Assembly (NCBI GenBank): GCA_030549335.1
Contig: CM060191.1
Coordinates: forward strand, 54,597,447 to 54,661,446
Length of the DNA stretch: 64,000 nucleotides
DNA from: Pontederia crassipes
Lineage: Eukaryota; Streptophyta; Magnoliopsida; Commelinales; Pontederiaceae
Reading direction: 5' to 3'
Part shown: piece by piece, positions 22,154-55,547 of the stretch
How positions within the stretch are numbered: position 1 is the first letter of the stretch
Layout of the letters: every line of letters starts with the position of its first letter
Made by a program: the position numbers and the translations under genes
The notes under the pieces: model-generated
What the model was told of the DNA's origin: nothing
What the model saw: the letters and a program-made list of their open reading frames with translations, nothing else
Databases searched by the model: none

Positions 22154-22570
22154 ATGATCCAACGGCTGTCGCGGGTAGTCGACTCCTCGTCGTCGCAATA
22201 CGAGCCGCTGCGGCGGCCCCGCAAAGACCAACGCCAGCGTCCTGCAACGAAGACGGCGGCAGCGACGGCGACGGCGACGGCAGCCGAGGGCCACGTGCCG
22301 GTCTACGTGGGGGAGGAGATGGCGCGGTTCGAGGTGCGGGCGGAGCTGCTGAACCGGCCGGCCTTCGCCGAGCTCCTCCGCCGGTCCGCCCAGGAGTACG
22401 GGTACGAGCAGCAGGGCGTCCTCCGAATCCCGTGCTCCGTCGCGCTCTTCCGCCGCGTCCTCGCCTCCACCGCCGTCGACCGCGGGGGCCGCCGCCGCTC
22501 CGGCGCTGCGGAGGAGGACGAGCTCCTGGTGTCGTCGTTCGACGGGGAATTCCTTCTATCGTCCACGTGA
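22154..22570 (+). CDS. SAUR (small auxin-up RNA) family protein, SAUR71/72-like
   Basis: This is a complete intron-less gene of 138 codons. Residues 45-104 form the SAUR domain: 'EGHVPVYVGEEMARFEVRAE', then 'LLNRPAFAELLRRSAQEYGY', then 'QQGVLRIPCSVALFRRVL'. The N-terminus 'MIQRLSRVVDSSSSQYEPLR' resembles the SAUR71/72/41 group, which begins with a basic 'LIRRLSRVADSSQY' stretch. A Thr/Ala repeat (residues 31-44) and an acidic/Gly-Arg C-terminal extension are lineage-specific. In this family the proteins inhibit PP2C.D phosphatases, keeping plasma-membrane H+-ATPases active and promoting cell expansion. That role is inferred from the family. The codons are extremely GC-rich compared with the AT-rich surroundings, as in monocot SAURs. 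The start is the first ATG after the TATA box and (CT)n leader. No neighbouring SAUR copy is seen, though SAURs often occur in clusters. Confidence 0.93.
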   Translation: MIQRLSRVVDSSSSQYEPLRRPRKDQRQRPATKTAAATATATAAEGHVPVYVGEEMARFEVRAELLNRPAFAELLRRSAQEYGYEQQGVLRIPCSVALFRRVLASTAVDRGGRRRSGAAEEDELLVSSFDGEFLLSST

Positions 22571-28286: not shown

Positions 28287-29859
28287 TGTAGGATTACAAG
28301 GCGCCAAGAGGGTGGGTGAATTGGTGTTAAATCGAAAATATCGATTTTAGAAAAATCATCGTGGAATGTTAAAATTGATTCGTTAATATTTAAACCAACA
28401 CAATAACAATCAAATCACATACATAATACGGTGATTTGTTGACGAGGTTCGGTCACACCTTAATCTACGTGCCTGCTCCAACTTTTTAATCTCGAGGCCA
28501 CCGGAGATTCTATTAATACGTTTCCTTCGTTTCAAATGGGGCAAGAAAGAAATTCTTTACAAGTCTTGTTTTTTCTCCGTTTCAAGAGGCAAGACACACA
28601 TATTTCACTCGTAAGCTTTCACTCATCTATTCTTCACTCAAGGGGTAAGACACAATTTCTTTTCACTCAGAAGTTAAACAACTATTATAATATCACAATA
28701 ACACTCTACAATCTCTCTTTTACGATTTGAAACCTCACACAAGAGTAAGAAAAAGAAATAAAAAAATTGCAACTTGAAACTCAAATGGACTTCACAAATG
28801 TTCTTCCTACTTTTCCTTAAAAATCTTGATTGTTCCTACACCCTTGGGTATTTTTTATAGTCTTCTTAACTCAATTTAGCCGTTGGGGCTTGTTTTCCAC
28901 ATTTTAGATCAAAATATGACAATTATAATGCATTATGCGCTCTGACCTGTCGACTGCTCTAACCCATCGATCGATCAGTGCACATAGTCATTGCAAAAAT
29001 ATGACCCCTAGTGAATTCTACACTGGCCAGTCAATCGATCGATCGATTGGTGCTGCATCATCTCGACATTTCATTGGCTTCAATCGAGCAATTTTTTTGC
29101 TGACTGATTGATCGGTGTGCCTGACCGGTCAACCAATGCTTCGACCAACATCATCTCGACATTCAGCGAACTTCAACTTGGCAATTTCTTTGTTGACCGA
29201 TGGTTTGACCGATGTGCTCGGTGCTTCGACTGCCAAATCGACCATCCTGCACTATTTTGAGCAACATTTTGCATAGTTATCCAAATGAAATTATTTTGAT
29301 TATACGAAAAGCTAACCGAATTCTCTACAATTTTGATACTCATTATTCATCCAAAATCTAGTGAGATCATAGTCAAATATTAATTAAAATTTAGTATACA
29401 AAGTTGTCCATTTCAAATAAAACATTGTAGACATTTACTCCTTTATATATAACTTTTCATATCAATATCTAAACAAGATGATATTTAATTCTTTGAAAAT
29501 CTAACAACATTATCTATAACTTTTATATTAATCTCTTAATCCAAATGCAAGTTTATCATATGAAAATATCAACTCCAAATTGTACTTTTCAAGCTTCACT
29601 TGTGTAAACATAACTTTTTATGTAGTTATCCAAATGATATGATTCTTGATTCTCTACAAAGATAAGAGAGTTACCTATAAATTTTGTATTCACCTATTAA
29701 TGTAAATCTTGTGAGAAAATAAATATTAATTGAAAGTTTAGTTCATGAAGCAATTCATTTTTATTTAAATTTTTTTGGCATTTTAAATATAACTCTAATA
29801 TTTTAAGATTTGCATCATCAAAATATAATTATATAAGGCATAAAAACTTTGTTCCAATA
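28287..29859 (-). repeat. 3' LTR of element A
   Basis: Non-coding, about 1.57 kb. It shares the 'GACGAGGTTCGG.CA.ACC' block and a cluster of 'CGATCGATCGAT' and 'GACCGGTC' motifs with the LTRs of A (right) and B. The purine tract in element sense (GAAAAGGAGGAGA) lies just to its right. Confidence 0.85.
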
Positions 29860-30334
29860 ATCTCCTCCTTTTCGAAATATGAAAAGTATATAAGTTGGGA
29901 AGGAAAAAATATTAAAATTAATTTTACTCCCTCTAAAATTAAGCTTTTGTTACAAATAGATATACACATGTCTTAACTTTAAGGTACTTTTCATATAGAG
30001 TCATATTCAGGTCCACATAATAAATCAGTGGTTATATAAATTTCTCTTATGTTCTTATCATATTTCTCATATATTTCTCACCCTTTTATTTCATGAAAAA
30101 GTAGTTTGCACATAAAGCACAGAAAAAATAATATATAACTCCTTATTTTTCATTCTCCCCCTTTTATCATATAAGTAACAATATATGCGATAGGCAAATA
30201 TAACTTCCCCTAAGTTCATGACCAACTCATAAGAGCAAAACATGAAATCAAATTGATCAAGGGATTATGAATAACACAAGTTCTAAAAAAATATATAAGG
30301 AATCAAAATAAAACTTTGAGACAATAATGATATA
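29860..30334 (-). other. internal 3' part of element A, non-coding
   Basis: Similar in text and order to 48219-48720 of unit B ('ACTTCCCCTAA', 'ATAAAACTTTGA.ACAA.AATGATAT'). No reverse transcriptase or RNase H motifs seen. Confidence 0.65.
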
Positions 30335-31595
30335 ATCTTTGGTTAAGAAAGATATTAAGATACATTACTTTGTAATTCCTAAACTAACAATTATCCTCGC
30401 TGGGTAAAAACTGATAGACCGTACAAAATCTAGCACAAACGATGAATTACTATTTTCATGTTATGATTGCTTCAACCTTAAGTCAACAATCGATTCACTA
30501 AAAATTATTAAATCCTAAAACTAACCACTCCAGATCTGGTTTGTAGTCTTATCTCAGAATATAATAATCTCAGTAAAAAGCATTAAGCATAACAATCATA
30601 ATCAAAAGAATCTGAAATAACTATATTAATTAAAATCTAACAACCGAGTTCATGCGGTTTTCTCGTAAACAATAAATATCTCTATTACATAAGTAATTAG
30701 GCATAAAAAGTATGGGTAAAGAGCATCCAAACAATAGATAGAAGACAGAATTCTTCACCTTCGATGATCTCTGGATTGCTGCAAAGTACACGCGCTCAGT
30801 TGCTCTCCAAATTCTCCCGAACAAACAACGAAAATTCTGAAATTCTTCTTCTGCAATATAGAACGGCTCCCAGGTTTCAAACACCTCCAAGAACTACCAA
30901 GCACCAAAGTCCCCCAGGTCCCCGTTTCTTTGCCTCCTAGGGCCTCTATTTATAACCTTTAGATGTCCCAAGTGTTCTAGTAGAGTTTCCATTTGATTCA
31001 AAGTCTTTTCATGTTAAAATAATTAAATTCGTAATAGACTTTGATAGGACTTTAAAATCATCCAAATCTCCTTCAAATATGAGTAAATATATTTTTTAAT
31101 CATCCCCGAAGCTTAGGATAAAGTTTGGGTTTGATCTGGACTTGAAATTCTCAAGAAAAGTCGAAGAAATCTCGAAAACAACCTTCGTAACGACTCATAA
31201 CTTGGATTTAACGGCCCTTACAATGTCCAAATCAAATTCGGACTTAAAACTGGGCTTTTTAACGGGCCGTAACGGGTTGTTCACACCTGTACTATTACAG
31301 CCATTATGGTCATATAACGACCCGTTATATTCAATACAGTCCAATACAGTCCTGATAGTCTTCACTAATTTGCACTTTTTGGCTCCGTTTTAACGCCGAT
31401 TTGAGTGTCGTTTGTTTTTGTGGATTCCTGACTCAATTCTCTTGCTTTTTATGTAATAAAAGATATAATTTGGGTAGATTTCTATTTTTATAAAATTAAA
31501 GCAAATAAGGTCATAAAATGATGCATGCTATATGAAAAGGAATCGAAATGTGATTAAATGCATAGCTAATTATATGTTATATTTTGCATGCATCA
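30335..31595 (-). repeat. 3' LTR of element C (partial)
   Basis: The copy ends GCATGCATCA on the plus strand, directly followed by a pyrimidine-rich tract (polypurine tract in element sense). It shares about 580 bp with the right LTR and carries several 'AACGGGCCGTAA'-type motifs near 31190-31330. Confidence 0.8.
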
Positions 31596-35537: not shown

Positions 35538-36513
35538 TGATGCGGTAAAATTTGTAACAAATAAATTTGCTAGCAAGTGCACTAGTCGTATCAAGTAATA
35601 AAATAGAGAGTAGAGTGTCGATCCCACGAGGAACTAGTTAAATCTAATCTATCCTAGTAATCTACTAGGAGAAGAAAAGGGTGTTGTGATATGAAAGGAG
35701 AAAATAAATTTGCAAAGAATTAAATAATAGAAAATAAAATAAATTGGTGTTGAGCCTAAGGATGATGGATGATTAAAGATAATGATTAACTAGTATGAAC
35801 AACTATGAAGATTAAATTATAACAATGATGAATAAATTTAGTTCTTAAGACGGATTAGGATTACCTAAATTAATGACCTCTACGTTGATTAAGTCAAACT
35901 ATCTTAATTCTCGCAAAACTTAAGACCACAAACGATGAGTTAATCTTCAGTTAAGAAAGATTAAGATGCATTAATTTGTAATTCCTAAACTAACACTTAT
36001 CCCCTCGCTGGGTAAAAACTAATAGACCGTACAAAATCTAGCACAAACGATGAATTACTATTTTCATGTTATGATTGCTTCAATCTTAAGTCAACAATCG
36101 ATTCGCTAAAAATTATTAAATCCTAAAACTAACCACCCCAGATCTGATTTGTAGTCTTATCTCAAAATATAATAATTTCAGTAAAAAGCATTAAGCATAA
36201 CAATCATAATCAAAAGAATATGAAATAACTATATTAATTCAAATATAACAACCGAGTTCATGCAGTTTTCTCGTAAACAATAAATATCTCTATTATAGAA
36301 TTAACTAAGCATAAAAAGTAGGGTAAAGAGCATCCAAACAATAGGTAGAAGACAGATTTCTTCGCCTTCGATGATCTCTGGATCGCTGCAAAGTACACGC
36401 GCTCAGTTGCTCTGCAAATTCTCCCGAACAAACAACGAAAATTCTGAAATTCTTTTTCTGCAATGTAGAACGGCTCCCAGGTCTCAAACACCTCCAAGCA
36501 CGACCAAGCATCC
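35538..36513 (-). repeat. 5' LTR of element C (partial)
   Basis: Starts TGATGCGGTAAAATTTG. From about 35930 it aligns with the left copy. Similarity stops next to the tandem array that follows. Confidence 0.8.
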
Positions 36514-36522
36514 AATTGTATG

Positions 36523-37118
36523 CAGTGGAAAGCTTTATAGGTTATAATTGTATGCAGTGTGTCATAATGTTAGTGGCAAATGTAATTAATGGTATTTATA
36601 GCACCTAAGAGAGAAAAATATAGAAAATTGAAAATTTTTAGAAAACAGATAAATGTGAATGGTGGCTCGAGAATCATCTTGAATGATCAGAATTATATAA
36701 ATATAAGAATTATATTTATTGAACATCATGAAGTGGAAAGGTTTATAGGTTATAATGATTGTAGTGTGTCATAATATTAGTGGCAAATGTAATTAATGGT
36801 ATTTATAGCACCTAAGAGAGAAAAATATAGAAAATTGAAAAATTTTAGAAAAAAAGATAAATGTGAATGATGGCTTGAGAATCATCTTGAATGATCAGAA
36901 TTATATGAATATAATATATATTTATTATCATGAAGTGGAAAGCTTTATATGTTATAATGGTATGCAGTGTATCATAATGTTAGTGGCAAATATAATTAAT
37001 GGTATTTATAGCACCTAAGAGAGAAAATTATAGAAAATCGAAAATATTTAGAAAACAGATAAATGTGAATGGTGGCTTGAGAATCATCTTAAATGATCAT
37101 AATTATATAAATATAAGA
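36523..37118. repeat. tandem array, about 205-bp unit, three copies
   Basis: Copies start near 36525, 36732 and 36934, each with 'GTGGAAAGCTTTATAGGTTA', 'GTGTGTCATAATGTTAGTGG', 'TAGCACCTAAGAGAGAAAA' and 'AGAATCATCTTGAATGATCA' in order. Identity between copies is about 90-95 percent by eye. There is no coding capacity. The array sits at the junction of element C and element A. Confidence 0.9.
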
Positions 37119-44660: not shown

Positions 44661-45840
44661 TGTAGGATCTCAAAGGATACCAAGAGGGGGTGAATTGGTG
44701 TTTAACCGAAAATATCGATTTCACGAAATTCGTCGCGGAAGCACAAAATTGATTCTTAAAACCTTCGCAATTCAGATTATAAACGCAATATTAAAGGGAG
44801 AGAGAGTGAGAGAAATCAAACACAAATAGATGCGGTGGTTGTTGATGAAGTTCGGCCACACCTTGGCCTACGTCCCCGCTCCGACTTTTTGAACTCGAGA
44901 CAACCGGAGATTCCACTACCACTTCCTTTGTTCCAAATGGGGCAAGGAAGAAAGCCCTTTACACAACCACATTTTCTCCGCTTCGAGAGGCAAGGCAACC
45001 TCTCCTTTTTGGAAGCTAATCTATTTCTCTCGCTCAAGAGGTAAGATTTAGAACCTCTTTTACACAAGAGCTCTCTCTATTTTTCTGAACAAAATATTTC
45101 TCTCTCTTTACAATGCTAGGCTCACAAGAGTGGAAGAGAGAAAGAAGAGCACAACTAAAATGATAACTTCAAGGAAAAGATCTTCTTTTGATTTCTTGAA
45201 GTATTGCTTCAATGCTTAGATTGGTTACTTTTGCTTCTGGCCTTGGGACTCCTTTTATAGGCTTTGGTATGTGGAAAATTCGTCCAGAATTAATTTCACA
45301 TTTTTTTTCTCAAAATATAGCCGTTACTGTTCTTTTCAGTAATGGACCGGTCGACTGCATTTATATATGGGCCAGTCGACCGGTCTATATGACCGTTGGC
45401 TCATTTTCTTCATTTGCCGTAGCTGATCGGTCGACTGCATTAATGAATCGGTCAGCTGATCTATATGACCATTGCGCTCATTTCTGCAGCTTCAGCACTT
45501 GGTCGATCGACCGGACTGTCGACCGATGTCTCGATCGGTACAATCTCGCAATTTTGATTTCTAGCCGTTGAGCTGATCGGTCGACCGGTGCTTCGATCGA
45601 ACTGTCGATCGGTATAGTCTCGACGTGAATTTGGCAGCTCATGTATTGATCGGTCGATCAGTATCCCAGATCGATCGACTGGACTATCTCGGCCGGCCTT
45701 CATAGCTTCGACCAGCCTTCATAGCTTCGACCGGCAAGTTACCTCCCTGCATTATTTTGAGCATAACTTTCTACACAGTTATCCAAATTAGATGATATTA
45801 GAGTTTATGGAAAGCTAATAGAATTCTTTACAAGAACTTT

Positions 45841-48049
45841 CCTTCATACTATCGGTCAATGTGAGTGTGAGTATGAGTCGAGCCAAAGGTGCCAGGTTTC
45901 AAGTCTTGAATTAGATCTTACTGGTCTCATATCCGCTGCTCGAGTGAAAGTGGGGGCTCGAACTGCCCTCAGAAGCGTCGAAGAAGCAAACAAAGATGAC
46001 AAACCCAACTTTTGTTGCAGAAATGTCTGCGATCGAGTAAATAGCTCTACGAACGAATGGATCGGATCGAATTGGAAAATGGAAAGATTTGTTTGTCGAG
46101 AAACGTAAAATGATATGGAGATCATATTCATTTTGTGTTTTGTCTAATTGTACCGTTTCCTCGTGTATTCCGATCTGAAGTTTTTGTGTATGTGTTTCCG
46201 GGTACTCCTATCGACCTCTCCAGACACAATATCTTGAGAGAACCAGACACTTCATCCCGAGTCCTATCGAACCTAGAAAGATGGACTGACCAGTGAGAAC
46301 TCCCCTAAGGGGCAAGCTTCACTAATATCCCAGGAATGAGGAATGAAAGAACTTCTACTATCTACTCACTCTTGCCACTAAGAGGGGATGACCTGTCTCG
46401 AATACGATGGGATTTCACACTTGGCAAATCTTTCACTCTACCTCCTTTGACTAAGACTGTAGAATGTTCCTGCGAATTATGACCTTCGCCTCTTTCAATA
46501 GCAGGTGATTGCGAGTTCATCATCACGGTGATCATGGAGATGTTGTTGCAATACGGTTTATGTATGAATGCTAACTATGGCAAGTTCAGTCTATTGTGGA
46601 GCTCCGAAAACCGAACCCCCTCACACTTCCCTTTCCTTTACTCAATTGCCAGGACGTCGACTAACCGCTGTCCCATCGGAGGAATGAATTGGCCGCCTTT
46701 CTCTCCGGCATGTTCAACGTCGAATTGAAACCCGAAGGCGGATTGGGACAAGCGATAATAAAATAGATCTGCCTTCCTTCTCCTTTCAGGGCCCATCCGA
46801 AAGAGAATCTAGTACCTCTTGGTCGTGAATATCTGAATAGGACGAATCGGCCTACGTGGATATCTTTTCAGTGCCCATATTGAGTATTGAGACGAGCGAA
46901 AAAATGGAAAGTAGTGAGAAAACGACGCGCTCCGGCTTTCGAGCGTTCCCTAGAGCGTGGAGGCTTTCGAGCCGCGCTCTGGCTTTCGAGCGCTCCTCTC
47001 CTGCGCATTCTTTCTTGGAGTACGGGACTTTCCAATAGAGAGTTGCTGGAAAAGGACAGTGCGGCTTTGCCTCGGGGAGCGAAAGGTTATACCTTAGTAA
47101 GCGAACAGCGGTTTTTCTATGTAGGTATTTCTGACTCTCTTAACGTCGAGAGCGGCGAGCGAAATGGGAGCAGCTTAAACCGTGAAAACGGGGTTGTGGG
47201 AGAGCAATACGAGCGTCGTGTCAAAAAGTTGCATGAGAAGATTCATCCCATTTTGGCGAGAGGGAGGCAGTGAATCACCTGGGCTACGGATTTTTCGGTT
47301 GGTTGATACTCGTCATTCGGAAAAAAAGATCCATCTGTCTAGATATCATCATATACATCTAGAAAGTCGTATGCTTTGGAAGAAGCTTGTACAGTTTGAT
47401 ATGAGTTACTACTCCTTGATCACTTACAGCGACCCAAACATTCAATTGCATTTTCCAATTGAAATGGAAAATAACTACCGAAATAGCATTGTACATCCAC
47501 TGGAAAATGGTCCCCCTACGGAGAGAGACCAACGGCATTCAAGTTAACATTAGCCTTAACAGAAATTGATTGAATAGACCCAAGATCCATTAAAGCTCGA
47601 AGGTTTCATTTCAAACATCTATAAGTGTAGACAAGAAGCTAAGAGCGCTGGTGATGAGGCTATGAGTTGGACTTATAAGATTCAAATGAACTCGTTATAT
47701 GGTAGATTTTTCATAGCACTCTCCCTTACCCAGACCTGAATCCATATCTGACTTGACAGCTCCCATCTATCTCTAACTAAAGCATAGGAAAGAAAAGCTA
47801 ATTTGATATTGAAAATCAGATTTTTGAGATTGAAAATGCTAGTTCTTTTGAGAATGAACTAGAAAGTTTTTTTTTTTCTATTTCTAGTTATTTGCATTCA
47901 ACAATTAGCAAGCCGCTCTTTCACTTTTTTTTTCTCTCAGGCTTTCCGCGTAGAGTATCATAATAACCGTCGAATGCCACTAGACAGAATTTCTCAATAT
48001 GAGAGAGCCATTCCAAGTAGTATAGATCCCGAATTACTCAAATCCTGAC
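45841..48049. other. mitochondria-like DNA (NUMT-like) inserted in an LTR
   Basis: The base composition (about 45 percent GC, even) and lack of similarity to the LTR mark a 2.2-kb foreign block. It contains a family-B DNA polymerase motif like those of plant mitochondrial plasmids, and several long open frames without recognised function (for example 46887-47273 and 47182-47547). Its edges are abrupt and lie inside otherwise continuous LTR sequence, with no duplication obvious, as in end-joining capture of organelle DNA. The mitochondrial origin is an inference from style and the polymerase piece. Confidence 0.6.
47588..47735 (+). pseudogene. fragment of organellar/plasmid family-B DNA polymerase (dpo-like)
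   Basis: The plus strand reads 'EGFISNIYKCRQEAKSAGDE' and then 'AMSWTYKIQMNSLYGRF'. This is the motif-B region (K-x6-YG) of protein-primed family-B DNA polymerases, as in linear mitochondrial plasmids of plants and fungi ('YKI.MNSLYGRFG'). The exonuclease and remaining polymerase motifs are absent from the window. It is a short relic within the organelle-like block. Confidence 0.65.
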
Positions 48050-48218
48050 GTTCCATATTCATCCAAAACTAATAAGATCAGTGCCAATTATTTAATCAAA
48101 GTGTAGTGCATAAAGTTATCTCTTTTTCTTTAAACTTTTTCAGCATTTTATCTTTAATCATTCGAGGTTTGTATCATCAAAATATAATTTTATATGTCAT
48201 TAAAACTTAAATCCAACA

Positions 48219-49216
48219 ATATCCCTCTTTTTTATGAAGACAAACCGAGAAATATGAAAAATATATAAATTGCGAAAAAGTTGTAAAATTCTTATAAAAA
48301 TAATTTTACTCCCCCTAACACATAGTTTTCCTTACAATGGTAGTTATTCACATGAATATTAATTGTAAGGTACTCTTCATATAAAGTGATATTCATATCA
48401 TATTTCTCCTATACTTCTCCCCCTTTTGTTTCATCAAAAAGAATAATTTATATATATGAAGCATATAAGAAACCATATGTAGCTCCCCCTTAATTAATTT
48501 TTCAAAAAACTAATTTATTCTTCCTCTTTTGTCATATAATAGACATGTAGAGTATTGCAACATAAAGATTTGAAAATATAACTTCCCCTAAATTTATAAA
48601 TATTTTATAATCGTAAAACGAAGACAATTTGATGAACTTCAAAAATATATTTATGAATCAAAATATGACATAAAACTTTGATACAACAATGATATCCATG
48701 ATATGTCAAAATAAAGTTTTAAAGTTTTAACATGTTCCCCATATCATTATGACCAATTTTCTTTTGTTCCTCTCTTTTCTTTCAAAGAAATAGTCATTTT
48801 GAAATTTTTTGAATGAAATTAAAAGAATAGGCCTAATCAATTAAGAAATATAAGAATGCAACCAATGATACTTTTACTATAACCTTTGTGCCTACACATT
48901 TTTAATTCCACTTGTCCTTTATATGTGAGGCACACCTGCAAAAATGATTATGTAACCTTTGGTACCCAAATTTCTTTGGGTCCTATTTTGTTAGATGTTC
49001 CTTTCGGAACCCAAATCATGCCATTTTGTAAAGATTTTCTTACTTTGCATTGATATGCAGAATGACCATTAAATACACATGTAAAACATGTAATATGTGA
49101 TTTTCTATCATATGTATGATTAGATTTTCAATAAGAGTTTTCATGTCCAAAGTGTTTTTTAGGATTATTTTTTGTTACATGAGAAATAGCTATATTTTTC
49201 AAAGAGGAATTTTCCT
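48219..49216 (-). other. internal part of unit B beside the polypurine tract
   Basis: The stretch is AT-rich. Near 48900-49060 the minus strand has a 'WVPK'-type motif and a Cys-spaced block that in SIRE elements follow the gag coiled coil. No reverse transcriptase motif seen. Confidence 0.55.
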
Positions 49217-49759
49217 TCATTTCTTTTTTCTAAAGAGCTTTACAATTTCACATGCATGTGTAATTTTCAAAGTTTCAATTTCATTTTTTAGAGTTTCATT
49301 TTTAATTTTTAATTTTTCAAACTCATTTTTCATAATATGAAGATCATTCGTCAAGTTTTCATTATGAATTAGACATGCATCTCTTTCCTTTTTCAAAATA
49401 TCAAAGTCATCTTTTATAATATGAAAGTTATTCATCAATTTTTTATTCTTCTTTTTAAGAATAAGATATTTTTCAATTAAGAAGGAGAATTCCTTATGCA
49501 CGTCAAAATTGATATTATCATCCTCATTATCATTATCACTATTAGCACTAGAGCAATAAGAAAAGTTGGAGGATACCCCATCATTATGTGCCATTAAGCA
49601 TAGATATGCATCCTCACTGGACGAATTTGATGATTCATTTGATTCATCTTCACTTGAATCTTCATGCCTTTTCTTCTTTCTTCTATGAGATGTCTCTTCT
49701 TTGTGATTTTTATATGACCTTCGGGTAGGCTTCACATTCTTTTCTTTCTTTTTCACCAA
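49217..49759 (-). pseudogene. SIRE-lineage gag C-terminal region of unit B
   Basis: The frame of 180 codons has a basic Lys/Arg-rich start, a Ser/Asp/Glu-rich acidic stretch ('HEDSSEDESNESSNSSSEDA'), 'LCLMAHNDG', and then a long Leu/Ile/Asn coiled coil ('LILKKKNKKLMNNFHIIKDD', 'LKNEIETLKITHACEIV'). This acidic block, 'CLMA' and coil order is characteristic of SIRE/Maximus copia gag downstream of the zinc knuckle. It is a remnant in a dead element. Confidence 0.75.
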
Positions 49760-49792
49760 TTTGAGATACTTATCGAGTTTTCTTGTGTAGAT

Positions 49793-51035
49793 TGTTAGAT
49801 CTAAGTTTTAATGACATATAAAATTATATTTTGTGTAGATTAAAGTTAAAATGCTGAAAAAATTTAAAGAAAAATGGATAACTTTATGCACTACTCTTTG
49901 ATTAAATAATTGGCACTGATCTTATCAGTTTTGGATGAATGTTGAACTCAAAGTTGTAGAGAATTCTGTTAGCTTTCCATAGACTCCAAGAACATCTAAT
50001 TTGGATAATTATGCTAAAAGTTATGCTCAAAATAGTGCAGGGCGGTCAACCTACCGGTCGAAGATATGAAGGTCGGTCGAGACAATTTGGTCGATCGATC
50101 GACAATACCGGTCGACAGATCAATGCATAAATTGCTTAAATTAAAACTGCGAGACTATATCGGACGAGACATCGATCGACAGTCCGGTCGACCGAACAAG
50201 TGTTGAAGCTGCAGAAATGAGTGCAACGGTCATATAGACCGGTCGATCGGTTCATTAATGCGGTCGACCGATCAGCTGCGGCAAATGAGGAAAATGAGCC
50301 AACGGTCATATAGACCGATCGACCGGCCCATAAATGCGGTCAATCGGTCCATTACTGAAATGAATAGTAATGGCTATATTTTAAGGAGAAAATTGTGAAA
50401 TTAATTCTGGACGAATTTTTCACATACCAGAGCCTATAAAAGGAGTGCCAAGGTCAGAAGCAAGAGTACATATCCAAGCATTGAAGCAATACTTCAAGAA
50501 ATCAAAAGAAGATATTTTCTTTGAAGTTATTATTTTAGTTGTGCTCTTCTTTCTCTCTTCCGCTCTTGTGAGCCTAGCATTGTAAAGAGAGAGAAATATT
50601 TTGTTCAGAAAAATAGAGAGAGCTCCTGTGTAAAAGAAGTTCTAAATCTTACCAATTGAGCAAGAGAAATAGATTAGCTTCCAAGGAGAGGATGCCTTAC
50701 CTCTCGAAGCGGAGAAAATGTGATTGTGTAAAGAGCTTTCTTCTTTGCCCCATTTGGAACAAAGGAAGTGCTAGTGGAATCTCCGACAGTCTCGAGGTCG
50801 AGAAGTCGGAGTGGGAACGTAGGTCAAGGTGTGGCCGAACCTCGTCAATAACAACCGCATCTATTTGTGTTTGATTTCTCTCACTCACTCTCTCTCTAAT
50901 ATTGCGTTTATAATCTGAATTGCAAATGTTTTAAGAATCGGTTTTGTGCTTCCGCGACGAATTTCGTGAAATCGATATTTTCGGTTAAACACCAATTCAC
51001 CCCCCCCCCCTCTTGGTGCCCTTTGGGATCCTACA
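49793..51035 (+). repeat. right LTR of unit B (plus orientation)
   Basis: It starts TGTTAGATC and ends GGGATCCTACA. Its complement matches 44661-45840 and 48050-48218. It contains a run of 13 C (around 51000-51010) and many 'GGTCGACCG'-like palindromes at 50040-50345. Confidence 0.85.
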
Positions 51036-52236: not shown

Positions 52237-52957
52237 GGGTTTTTCCACTGAACTATGAATTTTTTCCACGTCTACCAATGACTTTCAAATATTCTGCGGA
52301 CCTCTTCTGAATTATGCCATTTTCTTCACTTAGGTCCATCTGTCAATGTTTGTTAACTTTTTCATTATTTTTCCCACTTAGGTCCATTTGTCAATGTCTA
52401 TTAACTTTTCCATCCATCAGTCCAGAACGCCGATGAGGACGACGAGTCCCTGTCCTCCGCTCGAATTGTGGACGCGGATGAGGGCTGTGGGAACTTGGAA
52501 TCAACGTAACGGAAGAGCGACCCAGGAGTGGCGACGACGATGTCTCCGTTGCAGCGGAGGAATGGCACAACAGGACTCTCGAAGGGGACGAGCTGGACGG
52601 GGACGTTCTTGTAGAGGAGGGCGACACTGATGTGGGATGCAATGGGGCACGAGTGGCTTGGCCGACGACGGGGAGGGTGGCGTTGCTCCCTCCCGACCTC
52701 GCCCCCCACCCCCCTCCGGACAATAAATTTTTTATATATTTACTATTATGTATTATTTTAAGCACACTTATTTGAACTTCACGAGGGTATTTTAGTTTTT
52801 TCATAATTCAAAAAATGAAAAATAATGGAAAAGTTAACCAACATTGATGGATGGACCTAAGTGAAAAAAATGGCTTAGGGGAGGTCTGCGGAATATTTGT
52901 AAGTCGTTGATAGATGCGAAAAGAGTTTATAGTTCAAGGTGGTTAGAGGAAAAACCC
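52237..52957. mobile_element. Pack-MULE-like element with long inverted ends
   Basis: The ends are GGGTTTTTCC and its complement GGAAAAACCC. About 150 bp at each end are inverted copies: 'ACTTAGGTCCATC', 'CAAATATTC.GC.GACCTC' and 'GAACTATGAA'/'GAACTATAAA' blocks occur in the same order on opposite strands. Mutator-like elements have such long ends. A 9-bp target duplication is not clear. The centre is a GC-rich captured fragment. Confidence 0.65.
52401..52709 (-). pseudogene. captured GST N-terminal-like gene fragment
   Basis: In one minus-strand frame, 'SHISVALLYKNVPVQLVPFE' is followed by 'VVPFLRCNGDIVVATPGSLF' and 'RYVDSKFP'. The pattern resembles the thioredoxin-like N-terminal domain of glutathione S-transferases ('R..L.EK.VPY..V...VPVL...G..I.ES..I..Y.D..FP'). 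The usual N-terminal strand with the active-site Ser/Cys is missing. GC content is far above the neighbourhood, as for a host exon picked up by a MULE. Probably non-functional. Confidence 0.5.
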
Positions 52958-53650
52958 TTAAATTTTTACACGGACTCCTTACCGGATCACGGTTGGACCG
53001 GTCTAATCGAGTTCGACTGAATTGAACCAAATTTTATTAAAATAATATTATTTATAATAATTATAAATATATAATATAAGTTATATGATATAGTATATGA
53101 ATATCGTACTAATAACCTATTAATAACATTAAAAATTAATATAACATAATTTTTATTTATTAAAAGTTTTAATAATGATTAACATATAAATATAAATTGA
53201 TTATTAATAATTTAATATCTATTATTTATTGATGACAGATGCTATATTAGTAAATTTTCTCTTAATTTTTTTTCTTTTTTTCTTTTTTTGTTTAACACTT
53301 TCCTTTTTATTTTCTTTATTTATGCTCTTTGATAATTTTTAATTTTAATGTTATTCAATTTTAAATACTTACCTTTTTTATTTCAATTCTTATTTAATTC
53401 TAAACACCCCATATTCCCTCCTTTTTTTTATTTTTCTTATATTCTTTCTTTTTTCCTTTTTTTACTTTCCTATTTTTGTTATTTTTTTTAATTTGCATTG
53501 AACCGAATTGAACCGGTTTAATTAATCGATTCTACTGATTTTTTTCCAATTCAATTCCAAAATTGATTTTAATATCAAAACAAACCGAATTACCAGTCGG
53601 TTCGCAATTGAATTGACCAGTCCGATTCGATTTTGATAACATTACTCATT
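52958..53650. repeat. AT-rich block with GAACCGAATTGAACCGG-type ends
   Basis: 'ACCGGTCTAATCGAGTTCGA' near 53000 and 'GAACCGAATTGAACCGGTTT' near 53500 lie around a very AT-rich centre, as in many plant MITEs of unknown family. Terminal repeats could not be matched exactly. Confidence 0.35.
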
Positions 53651-54224
53651 TACTCCATGGTTGTCCGACCCGGCCTGGCCCGAACGGTCGGACCGGTGTT
53701 CGGGGCCTAAAACGGTCCACGGGTCAATCAAAACTCGAGGACTGGTTTGACCCGCTTTGACCCGGGTTCAACCGATCGATCCGGCGGGTTTAACCGATCG
53801 GCTGGGTCAATTGTTGAAATAAAAAATGAAACATAAATAAAATTATTAAAACATTTATACATATTATATATATTTCATGAAATTTATATTTTAATGTCCT
53901 CTTGTCACATATATAATTTTTTCACTATTTTTTATTTATAATTACATCACAAGAATTTTTTATTTATGTTGATGACTTAATTTATGTTAATTTATTATAT
54001 TATTTAATCTGAATTTATTTTATTTTAATTTATTATATTATATTTTATATTTTTGTTAAATAAGATATCATATATTAATAGGATTATAACAATCTCTTTA
54101 ACTTAGTTTATTCTTTTATTAATTTATATTATCCGGTCCGACCATCCGATTCGACCTGGTCCAACCGGTCCGATCTGACCCCGTTGATCAATTCGGATCG
54201 ACGGCCAGATCGGATCTTATAACA
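53651..54224. repeat. MITE-like repeat with GGTCGGACCGG-rich ends
   Basis: Both ends are GC-rich with 'GGTCCGACC', 'CCGATCGATCCGGCGGG', 'CCAACCGGTCCGA' and similar inverted words, and the middle is AT-rich. Flanks 'TAACATTACTCATTTACT' and 'TAACATTGATTTACT' are similar and may be an expanded target duplication. Confidence 0.45.
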
Positions 54225-54336
54225 TTGATTTACTCTTGATGACTTTTTTGGTGATCTGCTCGGGTTCCGAAGAAATTAAAAAAGATGGTCTAGACTATAG
54301 AAGTCGTAACGTTGGGAGAAAATTCAGGTTTTTAAT

Positions 54337-54428
54337 AAGAGGTGGGAAGAGGATTTAATTTAGAGAAAAATCCAATTATGATTATATTAATGAATTAAAT
54401 ATTAATCCTCTTCTAATCCACCTCTAAA
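54337..54428. repeat. short foldback
   Basis: AAGAGGTGGGAAGAGGATTTAA is followed about 65 bases later by its near complement ATTAATCCTCTTCTAATCCACCTCT, so the segment can form a hairpin. Possibly a decayed MITE. Confidence 0.6.
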
Positions 54429-54792
54429 TGATATATTTAATTTTTATTAAATATCCTAAATTTTTATCTTATTTTTTATTTCTTTTTTTATATTCAAACT
54501 CTTATCCTTTCTCACTTTTTCTTTTCCCTTTCTAACTTTAATTTTATTTTATTTTAAAATAAAATTGAAATGAATTAAATAAATCATATTATTAGTTGTC
54601 TATTTCAATAATTGTGAAAAAAGTTGTTTATTATTGTTACACCAGTGACATTGAATAAGGTAACTACAGCAGCACTTTGTCTTGCTTCAGAAACACAACT
54701 CACTCATCCATTGATCATTATGAATAAAGTTTTTCTGTTATGAATAAAAATAAATCAGACACACATGAATCAAGTTGCCCATAATATTTTAA

Positions 54793-55090
54793 GGGTGCTT
54801 CTATTGCCACTCTTAAAATCACTATTGCCGCTCTAAATATTTTTTTTTGGACAATTTTACCTTTCAGACTTTCATTTTTTCATTTGCCTTTCTTATGTTA
54901 TTTTTTTGACGTCGACTTCTCATCATATTTTTCCTTTTTTTTCATACTCGATGTCACTTAAATTATTTTAATATTTTTTATCTCCTTTTTCGATGGAATC
55001 ATTTGTAGATAAAGAAAAAATAAGAAAAAAAATAAAATTGTAACAAATAAATATTTGAAGTGGCAATAATAATTTTAGGAGTGAACACCC
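54793..55090. mobile_element. hAT-type MITE with perfect 8-bp target duplication
   Basis: Ends GGGTGCTTCTATTGCC and (complement of the right end) GGGTGTTCACTCC form imperfect inverted repeats. The element of 298 bp is flanked by TATTTTAA on both sides (54785-54792 and 55091-55098). An 8-bp duplication is the mark of hAT elements. Non-coding. Confidence 0.85.
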
Positions 55091-55099
55091 TATTTTAAA

Positions 55100-55547
55100 T
55101 GCGGCCTTAGAACTCAGACCAAATTACAATCACATAATTATTCAATCCATCTCCCCCACCGTTTTCACATCCACTGGGCCTCGGCTATGTACTGAAGAAC
55201 GAACATCAATGAACAGGAACGAAGAAGAGAGCACAGAATGTGAGAATAAAAATACACCAATTACATCGTTTCATATAAGAATGCTGCATTTCGCGTCATT
55301 TCTTTAGAAAGAGCATTTATTACACGAGAGAATTCTGAAAGCGGAACAAAACGAATGTGTAGCAGAACAAAACATTCTGCAATGAATATACCAAAACGCG
55401 AAATCCCCCTCATCTCTACATAAAACAAAACAAAAAACATCTGGACGAGTAAATGTCGTGAATCACTTCAGAATCAAGTAGATCCTGCGCCATCCCCACC
55501 GTGTCTTATTCCTTAACGCGTATGGAGCAGAACTTTTGCCGCCCTGT
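55100..55547 (-). other. 3' untranslated/flanking region of the membrane-protein gene
   Basis: Moderate GC, no open frame of interest. It lies directly downstream of the stop codon on the minus strand and likely holds the 3' untranslated region. Confidence 0.4.

Follow-up and report, generated by a model that had tools for sequence, protein, structure and literature searches.

A decayed organellar insertion of unusually varied content inside a plant nuclear LTR

When an LTR reads continuously in one copy and is split in another, the intervening DNA raises the question of where it came from and how and when it entered. We addressed this question for a locus within a 64,000-nucleotide stretch of Pontederia crassipes DNA (the window), in which ~2.2 kb (45839-48049) separates two arms of an LTR, copy B, whose text is continuous in an inverted copy, copy A (49793-51035); BLASTN and alignment confirmed this interruption, which the initial annotation had proposed. 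An auxin-responsive protein domain (Pfam E 3.5e-25; presumably of the SAUR type) at 22229-22465 on the plus strand indicates that the window is plant nuclear DNA, and one and the same LTR flanks the block on both sides. The features of the interrupted LTR are:

44661..45838, minus strand: LTR copy B, arm left of the insert, 88.8% identical to copy A over 44661-45600
45839..48049, no strand assigned: organellar insert with no counterpart in LTR copy A, edges accurate to within a few bases
48050..48218, minus strand: LTR copy B, arm right of the insert, 86.0% identical to copy A
49793..51035, plus strand: LTR copy A, without interruption and in the opposite orientation to copy B (BLASTN and alignment)

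BLASTN of the window against itself paired copy A with the opposite strand of 44661-45600 (88.8% over 950 columns), 45708-45833 (85.0%) and 48050-48220 (86.0% over 171 columns), and elsewhere the window gave no match to any of 45834-48049 at E ≤ 0.01. As a whole, the interrupted copy B occupies 44661-48218 on the minus strand, running from the LTR start TGTTGG at 48218, which adjoins the purine-rich AAAAAAGAGGG, to an LTR end of ...CCTACA at 44661. Copies A and B face in opposite directions and so are not the LTR pair of a single element. Joined and aligned to copy A, the arms of copy B are 88.8% identical over 1,236 sites (K2P 0.124), a distance that at substitution rates of 7e-9 to 1.3e-8 per site per year places the divergence of the copies at 4.8-8.8 million years ago; this divergence time gives no date for the insert. 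Descriptions of the LTR as young and of the insertion as one of the latest events in the window found no support in copies that are 11% diverged, inverted and not partners, and the only order that emerges is that the insert postdates LTR copy B. Between the two copies, within 48219-51035, copy A abuts apparent retroelement internal sequence in inverted orientation relative to copy B. A segment that crosses the inner edge of copy B (48086-48395) recurs at 29721-30009 with 70% identity, for which reason we regard copy B as probably a 3' LTR and not a solo LTR.

Inspection of the junctions showed that the intact text AACTTT-GA-GTTC reads AACTTT / GTTCC around the insert, with ~2 bp of LTR text lost. 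Exact words of 4-11 bp shared between the 30-base stretches around both edges comprise five of 4 bp, among them TTCC (45839 and 48051), and one of 5 bp, TTCAT (45843 and 48058); none of them forms a clean target-site duplication beside the break. Three inverted-repeat pairs of at least 12 bp lie within the block, none of which joins its two ends. Given that there is neither a clean duplication nor an end-to-end inverted repeat of at least 12 bp, the junctions are more in keeping with end joining at a double-strand break than with transposition, although a short, degraded target-site duplication may be present at the break. Some transposons carry captured sequence, and a Helitron or similar element loaded with organellar DNA could have produced the sharp edges, with TTCC or TTCAT as the remains of a short duplication; insertion of a Helitron in fact leaves no duplication at all. 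That neither word sits cleanly beside the break, that no inverted repeat of at least 12 bp connects the ends, that a six-frame Pfam scan of the block found no transposase family at E < 1 and that the window holds no second copy of the block together make insertion by such an element hardly credible.

The same Pfam scan, at E < 1, returned five families from the block, all of them organelle-encoded or organellar/viral: Ycf2 (E 6.3e-9), DNA_pol_B_2 (3.4e-8), Ycf15 (7.6e-8), PsaA_PsaB (1e-4) and Ribosom_S12_S23 (0.0012). The first three exceed the curated Pfam cut-off, and all five pass E ≤ 0.01, the threshold used for a control of 18 frame translations from three stretches (~15 kb out of the 62 kb outside the block), which contained no organellar family and only two families of any kind, the auxin-responsive protein and a sub-threshold DUF4770. 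The pieces located in the block are:

46019..46090, minus strand: chloroplast ycf2 piece
46395..46490, minus strand: mitochondrial-type rps12 piece
46764..46844, minus strand: chloroplast ycf15 piece
47398..47499, minus strand: chloroplast psaA piece
47590..47709, plus strand: family-B DNA polymerase piece around motif B
47971..48045, plus strand: possible piece of the 3' end of mitochondrial atp1 (RMPLDRISQYERAIPSSIDPELLKS)

With psaA, ycf2, ycf15 and a mitochondrial-type rps12 all present, we are highly confident that the block has an organellar origin of some kind. The initial annotation had already read it as nuclear-captured organellar DNA, and the rps12 and family-B polymerase pieces uphold that reading, but the three chloroplast pieces had been missed; their presence means either that the mitochondrial source held chloroplast scraps or that the insert is mixed. 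Over the window no Rfam family reached its gathering threshold, and two sub-threshold candidates in the block, a group II intron (20.4 bits against 40) and SCARNA7 (18.5 against 65), were taken as chance. ARAGORN found no tRNA. Of PDB searches with two plus frames of the block, one gave no match and the other five weak ones (best E 0.15), which we disregarded.

Of the chloroplast pieces, ycf2 tested alone matches Pfam Ycf2 at 3.5e-10, Ycf2 is the only PDB match of its minus frame (1.9e-7), and 23 of 24 interior residues are as in Ycf2 chain 8xku_D, after 9 of the 33 aligned residues, at the edges, were dropped. For the psaA piece, PsaA is the best of 88 matched PDB sequences, 60 of them listed (1.7e-11); the piece alone passes the Pfam cut-off (25.7 bits against 23.3; E 4.3e-6), and 28 of 34 interior residues are as in chain 6l35_A, 2 of the 36 aligned residues, at the edges, having been dropped. 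The ycf15 piece carries an in-frame stop at 46809-46811. NCBIfam models also recognise psaA (E 5.3e-14) and, in the rps12 piece, rpsL (E 3e-12), both under their whole-protein cut-offs, as fragments must be.

The rps12 piece resembles the mitochondrial form of the protein most closely. Taken alone and in frame, its best PDB match is uS12m chain 6xyw_Bk (45.8 bits, E 8.2e-12), followed by uS12m chain 9evt_K (43.1 bits, E 7e-11), both of which we take to be from plants; among the 60 listed of 79 matches, the best other S12 reaches 42.7 bits and chloroplast S12 38.8 bits (E 1.9e-9). When the entire minus frame is used, uS12m is again the best of 80 matches, 60 of them listed (2.6e-9), with the next only 1.3 bits behind. 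Seven of 32 interior residues differ from 6xyw_Bk, and three of these seven are explained by exactly a C in place of T (codons at 46475, 46412 and 46406; chain residues 74, 95 and 97), giving serine for leucine, serine for phenylalanine and arginine for cysteine, respectively. All three T-to-C-type differences are thus what codons with an unedited C would yield. Residue 97 corresponds to rps12 site 289, which we believe to be an editing site; a literature search returned no paper naming it as edited. The block already carries T at residue 90, presumably a further mitochondrial editing site (269). The second base of residue 95 is site 284, described as a C-to-U editing site in the mitochondria of maize and Arabidopsis (PMC7727260). 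Residue 74 corresponds to site 221, which cannot tell the organelles apart, since editing of chloroplast rps12 is reported there in Phalaenopsis, an orchid, and in Amborella (PMC5602750). Overall, the piece has the look of mitochondrial DNA from the genome, rather than of a copied-back edited transcript or chloroplast rps12.

Differences other than those at editing positions bear on how the block has aged. After edge residues were dropped (4 of 36 for rps12, and as above for psaA and ycf2), 11 interior differences were counted (rps12 4, psaA 6, ycf2 1), as compared with 10, 8 and 8 differences, editing positions included, over all aligned residues. Six of the 11 can have arisen in a single step only by G>A or C>T, and one more may have; since the references are from other species and the polarity is inferred, this pattern is only suggestive of C>T/G>A decay. 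Organelle clusters of mosaic make-up, decay biased towards C>T and a location alongside transposable elements have all been described in one review (PMC7037861). Decay also bears on whether organellar reads were simply joined into a nuclear contig during assembly. Psa and ycf pieces altered to this degree (6 of 34 interior psaA residues changed, the stop in ycf15) are unlike contaminating reads, with the proviso that the references come from other species, and both flanks resume at the same LTR position with only those ~2 bp missing; we therefore consider an assembly artefact highly unlikely.

The polymerase motif claimed for the block is real: TYKIQMNSLYGRF, which we take to be motif B, lies in frame at 47671-47709, and a stretch of ~40 codons matches DNA_pol_B_2, a family described as 'organellar and viral', above chance (E 7.1e-9 when searched alone). 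Other matches are weak, namely NCBIfam DNA polymerase II (5.4e-5, far under cut-off), a PHROG phage polymerase (best 1.5e-4) and, in the PDB, DNA polymerase II (E 0.21) and 1xhx, titled 'DNA polymerase' (E 0.52). Beyond these ~40 codons, the six-frame Pfam scan (E < 1) detected no polymerase sequence in the block. A search of a viral collection yielded 25 stretches that fit the pattern of the piece, none of which was confirmed. As DNA_pol_B_2 covers both organellar and viral enzymes, the attribution to a linear mitochondrial plasmid comes from the accompanying pieces, not from the match alone. Of the marks of such a plasmid, the block has an organellar-viral family-B polymerase, as a motif-B piece only, and has neither an end-to-end inverted repeat of at least 12 bp nor a full polymerase gene; with no such repeat and only ~40 codons, it is a plasmid relic at most. 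Polymerases of this kind have been described within mitochondrial genomes: DNA polymerase ORFs are reported in over 50 angiosperm mitogenome accessions (PMC8905907), and dpo and rpo in Lactuca mtDNA are described as similar to the genes of integrated linear plasmids (PMC8350775).

The piece at the right end of the block, RMPLDRISQYERAIPSSIDPELLKS, is possibly from the 3' end of atp1, and all tests made of it were negative. It has no match in the PDB or NCBIfam, and Pfam offered only a weak, unrelated YncO (E 0.13); its score against bacterial AtpA was reached by 599 of 2000 shuffles. Scans of viral and genome contigs with DNA patterns of the atp1-like and rps12 pieces recovered no plant contig and one bacterial contig: the atp1-like pattern matched nothing in either collection, and the rps12 pattern matched no viral contig and a single genome contig, which is titled as a Rickettsia MAG, is not plant mitochondrial and, from its rpsL, rpsG and fusA-like ORFs (identified by eye), is bacterial.

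The block has a GC content of 43.2% over 45845-48045 as compared to 35.0% for the rest of the window. Equal or higher values occur in 98 segments that do not overlap the block, among 1,236 of that length, such that composition alone proves nothing. The five database-supported pieces and the candidate atp1-like piece make up 568 bp, each being only 77-123 bp long, and the 1,636 bp of spacer between them, in six stretches, has a GC content of 44.5%; for comparison, 45.07% is given for the Eruca mitogenome (PMC4144905). That this spacer is mitochondrial is proposed only from its GC content, which ranges from 34.4% to 48.4% by stretch. The CpG observed/expected ratio does not discriminate (0.94 in the block, 0.88 in the rest of the window). 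The window's highest CpG ratios, up to 1.49, are found in an AT-rich region at 52251-55150.

How mitochondrial, chloroplast and plasmid-like sequence came to lie within one block can be read in several ways. Since the spacer has mitogenome-like GC and the chloroplast pieces are short, we lean towards arrival as one mitochondrial tract that brought chloroplast and plasmid relics with it and was end-joined at a break. A double-strand break inside LTR copy B would have been repaired by nuclear end joining, with a tract of plant organellar DNA as filler. The source would most likely be a mitochondrial genome that already held psaA, ycf2 and ycf15 as chloroplast relics, together with a linear-plasmid-type DNA polymerase relic near its own rps12, and the block would now be dead sequence without any function. 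One described chloroplast-to-mitochondrion cluster, psaA-psaB, is called eudicot-specific (PMC8905907), a weak hint against a monocot origin if the psaA piece came that way.

A real but lesser possibility is that the block is a numin, in which fragments of mitochondrial, chloroplast and plasmid DNA arrived separately and were first joined at capture, so that their order exists only in the nucleus. Along the block, chloroplast pieces do alternate with mitochondrial and polymerase pieces, and both a certain mitochondrial fragment (rps12) and certain plastid fragments (psaA, ycf2) are present, as judged by protein similarity and not by the BLASTN criterion of PMC6215612. That source describes mixed mitochondrial-chloroplast insertions as common in plants, with 1,782 in nine genomes, where numins account for 2-10% of organellar insertions; it also finds joins between mitochondrial and plastid DNA under-represented relative to random (PMC6215612). 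In the block itself, pieces of only 77-123 bp set within mitochondrial-like spacer speak against assembly at capture. So does the state of the chloroplast pieces: psaA is usually very conserved, and here 6 of its 34 interior residues are changed as compared with 1 of 24 in ycf2, which, on small numbers and with edges dropped, hints at different ages. An improbable reading is that the plasmid relic was a third partner alongside the fragments from the two organelles, taken up by the nucleus straight from a free linear mitochondrial plasmid; were this so, plasmid DNA would be able to leave mitochondria independently of the main genome.

Compared with known systems, the block is a genuine insertion of organellar DNA, now decayed, into an LTR of a plant nuclear chromosome, an ordinary type of event with unusually varied content. 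Like numts, it is nuclear, has no clean target-site duplication and includes a gene piece of mitochondrial type that keeps C at editing positions; unlike them, it carries chloroplast and polymerase pieces. It shares with numins the presence of both organelles within 2.2 kb of one nuclear site (PMC6215612), but its short pieces stand in spacer of 44.5% GC and their joins could predate capture. Chloroplast DNA inside plant mitochondrial genomes (MTPTs) likewise comprises short relics, psaA included, and would explain the mixture, but the block sits in the nucleus. With the dpo polymerase of linear mitochondrial plasmids (Pfam DNA_pol_B_2) it has in common a motif-B stretch of ~40 residues, but this is no more than a fragment of the polymerase.

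The insertion records a further round of DNA transfer from organelle to nucleus, one that postdates the LTR it splits. If the order of its pieces occurs in a mitochondrial genome, the block would preserve, as a fossil, the chloroplast and plasmid DNA which that genome had imported; if the order is absent from the mitochondrial genome, it would instead be a compact end-joining mosaic of three sources. Elsewhere, the window contains other repeats: a direct repeat of ~580 bp (30327-30907 and 35935-36515; 93% identical, 5.6 kb apart) may be an LTR pair, and a tandem-like array of ~200-bp units that are 90-94% identical lies at 36520-37118.
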